Translations under genes and position numbers: made by a program
The notes under the pieces: generated by a model
What the model was told of the DNA's origin: nothing
The model's input: only the letters and a program-made list of their open reading frames with translations
Database searches by the model: none
In this document: one piece after another, positions 3,949-20,319 of the stretch
How positions within the stretch are numbered: the stretch's first letter is position 1
How the letters are laid out: every line of letters begins with the position of its first letter
DNA from: a virus
Strand: one strand, 5' to 3'
Length of the DNA stretch: 24,100 bases
Virus record (IMG/VR): IMGVR_UViG_3300025890_000156
Span: 1-24,100 of that record

Positions 3949-4980
3949 CTAAAAATTCAATTTATTTTTAATCTTTTTAAATTGACTTATAGCCCATTTC
4001 TCAGCACGTTCTTCCCATTTATTATCATCGTGAGGGTCTAATCCTTTGTACTGAGCCATTGTACCTGCCTGAGCATATTTCTTTATAAATTTTCTTACTC
4101 CGAGTTGTTTAGCATCAAGAGCGTGTTTAATTTCGTGTAAAACGGTTATGATAAATTCTTTCATATTAGGATAAGAAGTTCTGATTTTTATAGTATCAGT
4201 TTCAGGTATATAATCACCAAAGTCTTTGCCTTTACTGAATCTAACTTTAGATTTGAGTCCGTATGCTTTAACTATTTCAGTAGCTATATGAAGATAGTCT
4301 ACTCTTTCTTGTAAAACATTTTCTTTTACATATTTTTCCCAAGATGTATCTTCAGAATCAAGTTGTGCTTCTACATCATCTATATATGCTTTTTTTATTA
4401 CAGAAAACTCTTCTTTTTCACCTTTACCATAAATGTAATCAGCTTTAGGAAAAACCATTTGTTTATAATCACCTCTGTTAAACCATAATTCAGGTTTACC
4501 TTTTAAAGTACCTAAAGTTCGTACATTATCTCCAGCTAAAAATCCTGTATCAGGTTCACCGTCATCAGCACCATATGTTTTTGTAGCTGATTCTACAGAA
4601 TACTTTTTTGTACTTGATTTAAAATTCTTTTTTCTCATAACCGTTTTTGATATCATATCTATTTCTTGATTTCTTTTGTCATATCTTAATACTACAGGTA
4701 CATTAATATCTGATTGCATATCTTTAAATAAAACATTTACACCATCAGGTAAAGAAGCTATATGTTTACCAAACTTTCTATACACAAGTCTAAATATCTT
4801 TATTACTTCAGCAGATGATATAGGTTTACCATTTCTTGTATCATTTACTCTGTCGTGAAAATGTCTTGTAAACTCTACATCAATACCTACTTTAGCCCAA
4901 ATCTTGTCAAGATGTTTTTCAACTTGACTAAGTTGACTTGGAGAGATATATTCATTTATTATATGTGTTAATTTAATCAT
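3949..4980 (-). CDS. Putative internal head protein with an HExxH zinc-metallopeptidase domain
   Basis: The 343-residue protein has three parts. Residues 1-10 (MIKLTHIINE) resemble the T4 capsid-targeting peptide and end in I-x-E, the cleavage signature of the gp21 prohead protease. Residues about 35-120 are a module of a kind I associate with marine phage proteins, with FTRHFHDRVND, KDMQSDINVPVVL and an MRKKNF end; its biochemical role is unknown to me. The C-terminal third contains HEIKH at 282-286, giving two zinc histidines and the catalytic Glu283. A downstream WEERAEKWA segment (about 326-334) could supply a glutamate third ligand, as in gluzincin-like peptidases. It is the last gene of the virion block, 23 bases after its neighbour. 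A peptidase packaged in the head and injected into the host is an attractive inference. The HExxH motif is seen; substrate and packaging are not. Confidence 0.6.
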   Translation of the reverse strand: MIKLTHIINEYISPSQLSQVEKHLDKIWAKVGIDVEFTRHFHDRVNDTRNGKPISSAEVIKIFRLVYRKFGKHIASLPDGVNVLFKDMQSDINVPVVLRYDKRNQEIDMISKTVMRKKNFKSSTKKYSVESATKTYGADDGEPDTGFLAGDNVRTLGTLKGKPELWFNRGDYKQMVFPKADYIYGKGEKEEFSVIKKAYIDDVEAQLDSEDTSWEKYVKENVLQERVDYLHIATEIVKAYGLKSKVRFSKGKDFGDYIPETDTIKIRTSYPNMKEFIITVLHEIKHALDAKQLGVRKFIKKYAQAGTMAQYKGLDPHDDNKWEERAEKWAISQFKKIKNKLNF

Positions 4981-5003
4981 AATTTATCATAAAGTCAAGC
5001 ATT

Positions 5004-5909
5004 TTAATCATCTAAAATACCTTCTCTCGCATTATACCATTTACGAAATTGTGCTGGTGTTCCTATCGAAACTTTACTCTCAGGTACAAACTTAAATAAG
5101 TCTTTTTTGTATGAGTCTTGTTTATAATCATCATATCCTGAATCTTTTTGAAAATAATAATCATCCCAAACTCGTTTCAAAACAAATACATCTATAACTT
5201 TTATTCCATACACAAGAACTTCATTCCACCAAGCAGAACCTTTATCTGCAGGTGTTCTTAGATTTTTGATTAACTCTTTTTTGTGTTGTTTTAAATATTT
5301 AGTTGAAGCATCAATATGTTTTTTAATTAATTTATTTGCTTTTGCATTCATTTCTGTTTTTACTAATCCGTTTAATTCTTTCCAATTTAAATCTTTGTTC
5401 CCAGGTTTATTTTTAATTTTATCTTGTAACTCCCACTCTTCATCTCTCCACGTAGAAGTATCAGGTATACCTTGTTTTGTTAGATAGTTTTTAAAATGTA
5501 ATCTATCTTGTGTGAGATAATGAACATCTACCCATCTCATACCTTTCTTATCAGGAACCGTGTCGAAATCCATATAATTTCTCGCTAACATAGTACCTTC
5601 TAAATAAAATATAACACCACCGCTTCCTGTTTGAACTCCACGACCTTTTGCAAGTTGTGAGCCTTTATTAGCACGTGTAAAAGTAGATATAGATTTTTTC
5701 TTACCTATCAATTCTCCAACATTCTTTATTGTACCAGGACCTGTAACGTGAAATGAATTTACTTGTTGTTTACCGACAAGTGATTCCATTTGTTTTGGGT
5801 ATAATGGTAAGTATTGTTTCATCGTTACCCAATTAATTGCTTGTTTTGTATGTGCGGGATAAAACTTATCGTTTTCTAATAGTAAATCTTTTAATTTAAT
5901 TATCTGCAT
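5004..5909 (-). CDS. Putative internal head protein, possibly ADP-ribosyltransferase-like
   Basis: The 301-residue protein begins MQIIKLKDLLLE, an amphipathic segment ending in L-x-E that resembles a gp21-cleaved capsid-targeting peptide. Residues 52-105 hold the most suggestive part: SFHVTGPG (His54), a KSISTFTR strand (72-79) and a hydrophobic VIFYLEG strand (99-105, Glu104). This order recalls ADP-ribosyltransferase folds: an N-terminal H or R strand, an STS-like strand, then a catalytic glutamate. I cannot confirm the fold by eye. The centre (about 165-215) is lysine-rich and helical, and the C-terminus is rich in aromatic residues. T4 Alt is a packaged ADP-ribosyltransferase with a similar targeting peptide, which makes the idea coherent. 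The gene overlaps its upstream neighbour by 14 bases, so translation is probably coupled. It could equally be a structural head protein. Confidence 0.45.
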   Translation of the reverse strand: MQIIKLKDLLLENDKFYPAHTKQAINWVTMKQYLPLYPKQMESLVGKQQVNSFHVTGPGTIKNVGELIGKKKSISTFTRANKGSQLAKGRGVQTGSGGVIFYLEGTMLARNYMDFDTVPDKKGMRWVDVHYLTQDRLHFKNYLTKQGIPDTSTWRDEEWELQDKIKNKPGNKDLNWKELNGLVKTEMNAKANKLIKKHIDASTKYLKQHKKELIKNLRTPADKGSAWWNEVLVYGIKVIDVFVLKRVWDDYYFQKDSGYDDYKQDSYKKDLFKFVPESKVSIGTPAQFRKWYNAREGILDD

Positions 5910-6345
5910 TTTTCATTAACTCAACAATTTTTTGCTTTATAGATTCTTTTACAGACTTTAACTTTGCTAATTTCTTCTCAGCATCTTTTATATCTTGTTG
6001 AATAAATTTTATATACTTTTTATACTTTGGATGTTTTTTAGCTAAAACTTTTGCATTGGATAATTCTTTATTTAAATCTATGATATAAAGAGCCATATCA
6101 TTTCTATCTTTTTGTACACCCTCAATAAATTTTACTAATTTCTTTTTATTCATAATATTCTCTTCTTTGTTTTTCACAATACGAAATGTAGTAACTTTTC
6201 TACCATTAATAGTAGGCATTCCGTGTTGGTCAGTTTCAATAGAATTTACTTTAGTCTTTTTATTCTTGAATCTTCCTGTAAGAATAGTATCACCAATCTC
6301 AACATCGATAGTAATTTTTTCGTTTAATATGTCTTTTAGTTTCAT
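5896..6345 (-). CDS. Small two-part protein with a capsid-targeting-like N-terminus
   Basis: The 149-residue protein starts MKLKDILNE, matching the pattern of a T4-type capsid-targeting peptide with L-x-E at 7-9. Residues 10-60 look like a small beta-rich module (IGDTILTGRFKN, then DQHGMPTINGRK and TFRIVK), a pattern I associate with short proteins of marine T4-like phages. After a short charged linker, residues 65-149 are lysine-rich and probably form a helical hairpin or coiled coil. Met65 (6153-6151) follows an AGAAGAG stretch that might support internal initiation, so the C-terminal part could also be made alone. No good Shine-Dalgarno precedes the main ATG at 6345, which lies 8 bases after the previous gene. 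Function is unknown; a packaged internal protein is my inference. Confidence 0.6.
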   Translation of the reverse strand: MKLKDILNEKITIDVEIGDTILTGRFKNKKTKVNSIETDQHGMPTINGRKVTTFRIVKNKEENIMNKKKLVKFIEGVQKDRNDMALYIIDLNKELSNAKVLAKKHPKYKKYIKFIQQDIKDAEKKLAKLKSVKESIKQKIVELMKNADN

Positions 6346-19546: not shown

Positions 19547-19966
19547 TTAATACTCACTAAAGTCCGCACCCGGCATATCTAAAGATACAATTATTTCGTC
19601 ATTAAATTCGGTACTAAATTTTGCTAATATATTTAAAGTATTCCCGTTGTCTATAAGTTCAGTTTTAACTAAACTAACAAAAGGTAAAAATAAATCTAAC
19701 GCTTCTTTTATAGATTCTTCAACTTGCGGTTTTAGTATAGCTGGGTCGTTTTGTTCAAAAACAATTTCTGATAAACGACATCCAAATTCAGGTATCGCTG
19801 GTCGTTCTCCTACCTTTGTTAACAATAAATTTTTTATATTATCTTGTATCTGTTCGTAATAACTATAGTTAGTTTTGAAAAAGCCATAAGTCTCTCTGTT
19901 GTAATTTAACGGAAAGCCTATTCCAAAGGCTTTGTCAGGGTCTAAGTCTATATCTCTTACGCTCAT
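19547..19966 (-). CDS. Baseplate wedge subunit, gp25-like
   Basis: The 139-residue protein (T4 gp25 is 132) belongs to the GPW/gp25 family. Diagnostic segments are GIGFPL near 15-20, YEQIQDNIKNLLLTKVGERP (37-56) and PEFGCRL (59-65), the conserved turn that anchors it to the wedge. The C-terminal beta region (SLVKTELIDNGNTLNILAK) also fits. In T4, gp25 joins the gp6-gp53 wedge core and contacts the first sheath ring, so it helps trigger contraction. Its ATG overlaps the upstream stop as ATGA, indicating coupling, and gp6 follows directly. No residues look unusual for the family. Confidence 0.93.
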   Translation of the reverse strand: MSVRDIDLDPDKAFGIGFPLNYNRETYGFFKTNYSYYEQIQDNIKNLLLTKVGERPAIPEFGCRLSEIVFEQNDPAILKPQVEESIKEALDLFLPFVSLVKTELIDNGNTLNILAKFSTEFNDEIIVSLDMPGADFSEY

Positions 19967-20319
19967 TTATTATTCATTTTATTCATAAGTTCACGATAAT
20001 CTTTAGTGATAGCTTTTTGTACATCAGGGTCAACTTGGTCAGGTGAAACTCCTGCTTTTTGTGCTATTTCTGCTACACCTGCATTTGTCATACCGCCTCC
20101 ATTAGATTTCATATCACCATAGCCTAATAAGTCAGCCATATCGTTTGTACCAAATGTTTTTCCACCCATTGTCGGATATTCTTCTTTTGTCTTAACAGAC
20201 TCTTGAATTGGCGTAGACCTTTTAGACTTAATTTCATTAATAAATATCTCGCCGAGTTGTTTTTTGACTTCTTCATTGACTAATCTACCGATTATTTTTT
20301 TTAACTCGTTTGCCTTCAT
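19963..20319 (-). CDS. Small protein upstream of gp25, function unknown
   Basis: The 118-residue product begins MKANELKKIIGRLVNEEVKK, a basic amphipathic helix. It then has a low-complexity Lys/Ser/Thr/Gly centre (YPTMGGKTFGTNDMADLLGYGD) and a helical C-terminus with DQVDPDVQKAI and RELMNKMNNK. The N-terminus resembles the short targeting-like peptides of the 3949-6345 genes but lacks a clear (L/I)-x-E site, so I do not group it with them. AGGAGG lies 6 bases before ATG at 20319, a strong start. It overlaps gp25 by 4 bases. Its position suggests a baseplate assembly factor or minor tail protein; no domain supports this directly. Confidence 0.6.
   Translation of the reverse strand: MKANELKKIIGRLVNEEVKKQLGEIFINEIKSKRSTPIQESVKTKEEYPTMGGKTFGTNDMADLLGYGDMKSNGGGMTNAGVAEIAQKAGVSPDQVDPDVQKAITKDYRELMNKMNNK

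Follow-up and report, generated by a model that had tools for sequence, protein, structure and literature searches.

A three-gene cassette with capsid-targeting-like leaders in an uncultured Far-T4-like phage clade

Results

Three adjacent genes follow the baseplate genes

The window, a 24.1-kb fragment of a viral genome, contains three adjacent genes on the minus strand, numbered 3, 2 and 1 in reading order (Table 1). An earlier reading of the letters without database searches (the sequence-only reading) had singled them out for capsid-targeting-like N-termini, and all three open reading frames are present, adjacent and on the minus strand. Gene starts were assigned automatically as the first ATG. 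The preceding virion-block gene ends 8 bases before the start of gene 3, gene 2 overlaps gene 3 by 14 bases, and a 23-base gap separates genes 2 and 1; this tight spacing is consistent with late co-expression of the cassette. Its upstream neighbours in the same direction are gp25-like and gp6-like baseplate genes, and downstream of it lie genes for a PDDEXK/RusA-like resolvase and a DnaG-type primase. The identical three genes also occur on a 49-kb contig. A T4-type late promoter (TATAAATA) ahead of the cassette was considered and dropped, since the window holds three such sites, which is below the chance mean, and none is close to the cassette. Elsewhere in the window, the gene at 19963-20319 (minus strand) has a longer amphipathic start, MKANELKKIIGRLVNEE, with the same motif at Glu16; it adjoins a gp25-like gene, and a similar gene is likewise placed in Flavobacterium phage immuto (gp114).

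Table 1 Features of the cassette (positions in the window)
Feature	Position	Strand	Basis or remark
Gene 3	5896-6345	minus	149 aa ORF, leader MKLKDILNE
Gene 3 leader MKLKDILNE, residues 1-9	6319-6345	minus	h..hhxE register, E9; predicted cut after Glu9
Gene 3 layout	5896-6345	minus	after the leader, a short conserved stretch at about residues 10-61 and then a helical C-terminal part
Gene 2	5004-5909	minus	301 aa ORF, leader MQIIKLKDLLLE
Gene 2 leader MQIIKLKDLLLE, residues 1-12	5874-5909	minus	predicted cut after Glu12
Gene 1	3949-4980	minus	343 aa ORF, leader MIKLTHIINE
Gene 1 leader MIKLTHIINE, residues 1-10	4951-4980	minus	sequence; conserved in homologues; predicted cut after Glu10
Gene 1 domain A, residues 12-122, FTRHFHDRVND...KTVMRKKNF	4615-4947	minus	PHROGs match
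Gene 1 segment B1, about residues 129-215, GEPDTGF...	4336-4596	minus	in some relatives a gene of its own, with a leader
Predicted internal protease site VLQE, residues 222-225, before R226	4306-4317	minus	hxE at junction, 52/52 homologues
Gene 1 zincin metallopeptidase domain (predicted), residues 226-343	3952-4305	minus	HEIKH, Pfam, Foldseek
HEIKH, residues 282-286	4123-4137	minus	zincin motif, conserved in homologues
WEERAE, residues 322-327	4000-4017	minus	candidate Glu third ligand, assigned by position only

Microcystis phage Mel-JY01 and Flavobacterium phage immuto are relatives by both capsid and baseplate protein, and Rhodothermus phage RM378, which serves as reference for the Far-T4 group (PMC4360716), is a relative by capsid protein. 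The clade of the cassette phage is Far-T4-like, uncultured and marine.

The leaders share the register of the T4 head signal

In the capsid-targeting sequence of T4 IPIII, mutations assign targeting to residues 4 and 7 and processing to residues 8 and 10, and T4 head leaders are cleaved after L/I-x-E (PMC9026906). The pattern common to the three genes can be written as h-x-x-h-h-x-E, with hydrophobic residues at -6, -3 and -2, Glu at 0 and its end at residue 9-12. Its register is that of IPIII residues 4, 7, 8 and 10, so the shared amphipathic (L/I)-x-E pattern proposed in the sequence-only reading coincides with determinants mapped by mutation. The leader observation is real. The pattern ends at residue 9 in gene 3, 12 in gene 2 and 10 in gene 1; of the 19 minus-strand genes in the window that start with ATG, only these three match, the other 16 having no pattern that ends at residue 9-12. 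The chance of three adjacent matches is about 2e-5 at the internal background rate of 0.0106, 2.3e-4 if 6/252 T4 ORFs are taken as background and 1.4e-3 if all 11/252 are.

Those 11 T4 ORFs, found by a scan with the same rule, include ipII, ipIII, alt, gp24 and gp2. The first four are known cleaved or packaged head proteins, the gp24 start MAKINELLRE having the same pattern. About half of the 11 correspond to no known head protein, which makes the motif alone moderately specific, and the rule misses ipI, gp22, gp67 and gp68. Because of the unexplained T4 matches we put the motif-only argument aside and treat the rule as useful, insufficient alone. Two T4 starts that fit the head-leader pattern are MKTFKEFIKE of gp61.1 (NC_000866, 18966-19130, gene 61.1) and MAIFQIINE of gp2 (NC_000866, 76061-76885, gene 2).

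One leader stands before many unrelated proteins

Searches of viral contigs gave 80 related loci for gene 1, 52 for gene 2 and 9 for gene 3, and about 2.6 Mb of this DNA encodes 549 protein families. As the loci were retrieved for holding relatives of these genes, per-family counts are fairer than per-gene counts; the families are themselves mutually non-independent. A positional scan of the 549 families gave a single sharp peak, with 17.7 family-equivalents at E10 compared with a mean of 1.27 at positions 20-60. In 29 of the 549 families at least one member has a stricter form of the leader. Internal-Met controls give an expectation of 1.28 such families (no more than 4 in any of 200 draws) and shuffled N-termini one of 2.18; a small number of the 29, for example the primase family, look like chance matches. 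Overall, the leader MIKLKDLLxE stands on approximately 25 unrelated protein families, and leader genes lie side by side in runs of up to four.

Conservation ends abruptly at the glutamate. We compared 18 families, one protein per family, selected with the pattern MIKL..hhxE, which fixes residues 2, 3, 4 and 10, limits 7 and 8 to hydrophobic residues and leaves 5, 6 and 9 free. Residues 5-6 resemble one another across the families, residue 9 varies freely (3.2 bits), and the entropy stays at 3.1-3.6 bits immediately past Glu10. In 16 of the 26 M[IV]KL families, which were chosen with no further constraint, the first Glu from residue 9 onward lies exactly at residue 10. The A/T-richness of the leader starts and the biased choice of Ile and Lys codons could point to a DNA-level origin of the shared start, for instance translation-start context or a recombination seam, with no peptide function. 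We give this explanation next to no weight, because all six Leu codons are in use at the Leu positions, Glu10 is fixed next to a free residue 9, and in the distant phage immuto a different peptide, MKKSQLRQIIKE, has similar hydrophobic-Glu spacing.

Some leader-bearing or leader-like genes in these loci have recognizable domains or stand beside relatives of the cassette genes. The product of L196:4909-5394 has the leader-like start MIKLTLLIE and then a hydrolase that is HD_4/SpoT-like (Pfam, E 7e-12; a phosphohydrolase PHROG, E 7e-33), and is possibly an injected alarmone hydrolase. The leader MIKLKDLL is found on PAP2-family phosphatases (L042:9173-10366 and L036:10381-10998). Directly downstream of a gene 2 relative, L164:1017-1541 encodes the leader MIKLLDILLE and then the HAD-like motif RVFDFDDTLV. 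Two proteins of 691 and 663 aa with the leader-like start MNKITNLNKILVEWAY (L148:6911-8986 and L152:5874-7865) also adjoin gene 2 relatives.

The leader recurs beside the prohead protease

The sequence-only reading had made its interpretation depend on a gp21-type prohead protease in the genome. Of 25 related contigs, 13 encode Peptidase_S77, the gp21-type family, at scores over its curated cut-off; one of them is G006, a contig of 126 kb that also holds relatives of genes 1 and 3. Peptidase_S77 has no match in the 24-kb window or in the 49-kb contig with the identical genes, and we infer the protease of this phage from its relatives. In five contigs (G003, G005, G014, G017 and G006) the leader is present on core-type genes near Peptidase_S77, in the forms MIKLKDILLE, MIKLKDILNE, MANIKLKDLLNE, MKIKDIIKE and MIKITDILNE. 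The two contigs that were read through, G003 and G006, have leader core genes between the protease and the scaffold/capsid genes, in the T4 order, which runs from terminase and portal through core genes, the protease and further core genes to scaffold and capsid protein. Capsid proteins of the clade have LIKE/A, LVKE/A or LIDE/S where T4 gp23 has FLTE/A (slash, cut position).

The strongest case for a head address comes from this location of the leader, next to the protease and ahead of the capsid gene. Together with the presence of the leader on approximately 25 families, the sharp Glu end, the varied Leu codons and the tandem runs, this location strongly supports the capsid-targeting reading. 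The position of the cassette after tail and baseplate genes would suit a signal that docks or loads proteins onto the tail or some other part of the virion, but the same leader on genes in the head region and the identity of its register with the T4 head signal make such a role very improbable. The leader might also target the core on proteins that are morphogenetic core or scaffold factors, degraded or structural, and not injected effectors. Several of the leader genes beside the protease do resemble core proteins, and T4 core proteins are mostly degraded (PMC9026906). We nevertheless consider this unlikely for the cassette, since the same leader precedes zincin, PAP2, HAD-like and HD_4 domains, gene turnover is strong, and the cassette lies outside the head module and adjoins the primase, all of which fits accessory cargo better. 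Our searches found no virion proteomics for this clade.

Genes 3 and 2 encode proteins of no recognized family

Gene 3 has no credible family match in Pfam or PHROGs, and an enzymatic activity for it is unsupported. Its leader also occurs in homologues with different C-termini; relatives keep the N-terminal segment, and the helical C-terminal part is replaced. The gene 3 segment also lies within large multidomain phage proteins of 1337 and 1051 aa (L077:9110-13123 and L076:1572-4727), each of which contains domain A of gene 1 as well; the 1337-aa protein also matches a cytidylyltransferase family.

In 36 homologues of gene 2, residues K5, L6, L9 and E12 are invariant or nearly so, and between the leader and a conserved WYPAHT, the start of the body, lies a gapped linker that varies in length. 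Homologues start at an in-frame MIKL, which indicates that the gene 2 leader is the standard 10-mer. An AlphaFold2 model (mean pLDDT 86.7) has one ordered alpha/beta domain and pLDDT below 50 at residues 1-13, and we counted this combination of a disordered leader and an ordered body in favor of capsid targeting. Gene 2 is therefore modelled as a well-folded protein, without a detectable relative of known function: no match of weight was obtained in Pfam, PDB sequences or Foldseek, and there were no relatives in a one-genome-each set of 84,980 species or in a cultured-phage collection, the family coming from uncultured phages only. A weak ADP-ribosyltransferase-like order of motifs (FHVT 53-56, SISTFT 73-78, NE 229-230) was examined. 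Comparison with T4 Alt by hhalign gave a probability of 0.1%, Foldseek reached a toxin with an ADP-ribosyltransferase domain only at E >3, and the Pfam and PDB sequence comparisons were likewise negative or too weak. We rejected the identity and keep the motif order as a lead only. The sequence-only reading had credited two of the three genes with possible enzymatic domains. This holds for gene 1, described below, and for gene 1 only; enzymatic activity of gene 2 is unproven.

Gene 1 is a modular fusion with a predicted protease site at its junction

Gene 1 is a modular fusion of leader, domain A, a linker segment and an IrrE/minigluzincin-like HEIKH zincin. Domain A matches phrog_23027 and phrog_14518 (E 1.7e-19 and 5.8e-9), PHROGs of T4-like phages with no assigned function, with relatives in Methylophilales phage Melnitz, Sinorhizobium phage phiM12 and Flavobacterium phage immuto. 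In phiM12 it forms the C-terminus of the 602-aa gp159, annotated as hypothetical, whose neighboring gene is annotated as a virion structural protein; we found no open paper on the phiM12 virion proteome. A check of domain A for a BECR-fold RNase gave a model with pLDDT of only about 55-60 and no Pfam match to such a family. Segment B1 is mostly disordered in its model.

The C-terminal domain is well modelled and combines an HExxH motif, a zincin fold and a third ligand assigned by position only. Gene 1 matches the Pfam family MPTase-PolyVal (PF18818) at E 0.0099 and 16.4 bits, under the curated cut-off of 27.5 bits. The family is found below E 0.1 in 41 of 47 homologues (best 1.7e-5), and two relatives score 20.2-20.6 bits, also under the cut-off. 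Foldseek matched PprI/IrrE (prob 0.99, E 0.007) and minigluzincins (prob 0.97), these matches spanning E-values 0.007-0.04, and its best five zincin matches had prob 0.92-0.99 and E-values 0.007-0.07. Enzymatic activity of gene 1 is likely.

Some phages encode the zincin and B1 as separate genes, each behind a leader of its own, and in other phages the zincin is joined to different partners, for example the PAP2 phosphatase. A (hydrophobic)-x-Glu motif lies directly before the zincin in 52 of 52 homologues scanned, 15/15 where it is N-terminal and 37/37 where it is internal; as the sequences are related, this conservation does not represent 52 independent events. Variants are LLLE, LNE, VLQE, LVSE and LIE, in which P2 varies, and in the PAP2-zincin fusion of L042 a full second leader, MIKLKPLLE, is retained mid-protein. 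In the gene 1 model, residues 206-226 around VLQE225 have pLDDT <50 (disordered). This internal junction is an addition to the sequence-only reading, which had dealt with N-termini.

The simplest reading is that gene 1 would be a cargo polyprotein cut by the head protease. Alternatively, the junction might be cut by the zincin itself or stay uncut, its (L/I)-x-E motif being an inherited remnant of fusion. Zincin autoproteolysis has been proposed for polyvalent proteins (Iyer et al. 2017, PMC5512222), and the L042 protein demonstrates that a leader can be carried along in a fusion. We regard this as a serious alternative that is nonetheless doubtful, since across fusions with different partners P2 and P4 change and just the hydrophobic P3 and the Glu at P1 are kept, which suggests selection on the junction site.

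Discussion

We propose that, in a Far-T4-like myophage, the three genes encode capsid-targeted virion cargo that is processed by the head protease and injected, with gene 1 also cut internally, and that they form an exchangeable cassette; we put the probability of this reading at about 0.84. It builds on the leader and its register, the sharing of the leader with core genes beside the protease, the modularity of the domains and the conserved junction motif, all of which can be read in the sequences, and it is from these that we infer packaging, cleavage, injection and host targets. The leader, comprising the first 9-12 residues, would dock each protein in the prohead core, and the gp21-type protease would cut after the Glu of (L/I)-x-E, freeing the mature protein inside the head. 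Mature proteins would exit together with the DNA and exert their effects in the host during the first minutes of infection. At VLQE225/R226 of gene 1 the same protease would separate domain A (with B1) from the zincin metallopeptidase. Leaders, domains and gene order would be reshuffled between phages.

A broader proposal is that the head protease processes cargo polyproteins: leader genes fuse, their inner leaders become cut sites, and several injected enzymes are delivered per chain. We hold this tentatively, judging its chances to be slightly below even. If true, it would account for both the assembly and the reshuffling of leader-bearing cassettes.

The cassette had been presented in the sequence-only reading as the best candidate in the window for an undescribed host-takeover set. 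The proteins are undescribed; the delivery route is that of the known T4 internal-protein system. Leader-directed packaging of variable internal proteins is established in T-even phages, in which IPI, IPII and IPIII inhibit restriction enzymes (PMC12373910), and the principle of delivery is thus known. What appears to be new is a clade-wide leader consensus, different cargo and putative leader-derived cut sites inside fusions; we found no earlier report of these in the searchable literature, which covers few of the subscription journals. The T4 internal proteins came to light by way of their leader, and IPI, IPII and IPIII proved to be restriction-enzyme inhibitors (PMC12373910). Here, the consensus makes dozens of anonymous genes into a short list of candidates for injection and early action, among them genes for a zincin protease, a PAP2 phosphatase, a HAD-like protein and a SpoT-like HD hydrolase. 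The consensus also makes a specific and cheaply testable prediction, cleavage after a named Glu and at the site between fused domains.

Comparison with known systems

The predicted C-terminal fold of gene 1 resembles ImmA/IrrE (PprI) and minigluzincins in its HExxH motif and a downstream Glu-bearing helix, but Foldseek E-values are at least 0.007, sequence identity is at most 20% and no regulatory domains were seen. Polyvalent proteins of phages and plasmids (PMC5512222) likewise carry an MPTase-PolyVal-like zincin in exchangeable multidomain proteins thought to be injected, and domain A and the gene 3 segment do occur together in the large multidomain proteins of L076 and L077. In contrast to polyvalent proteins, the cassette proteins are small, with one to three domains, and each has its own head-targeting leader; their junctions carry a head-protease motif and do not rely on the zincin alone, and the Pfam cut-off is not reached.

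Phage immuto has a comparable cluster, gp095-gp077 (NC_055915), with a pre-terminase run of leader-like starts (MKKSQLRQIIKE, MISIYNILKE, MRLLELLRE), domain A (gp080), a gp21-type protease and the capsid site IVSE/A. It differs in its leader consensus, and none of the cultured phages searched encodes a counterpart of gene 2. The immuto genes from tail spikes to terminase (L134:26295-41593, gp095-gp078) include this leader-like cluster of the MKKSQLRQIIKE type, and the phage, being cultured, is good experimental material.

In a comparison with the T4 internal proteins, we detected no T4 relative of the cargo, the leader consensus is MIKLKDLLxE here versus MKTYQEFIAE in T4, and several cargos of this uncultured Far-T4-like clade are fused with internal protease-type sites. 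The leader itself is alike, since IPI, IPII, IPIII and Alt have a 10-residue leader with the same hydrophobic/Glu register and (L/I)-x-E end. Also common to both systems are a gp21-type protease, present here in the related genomes, and variable cargo behind one leader.
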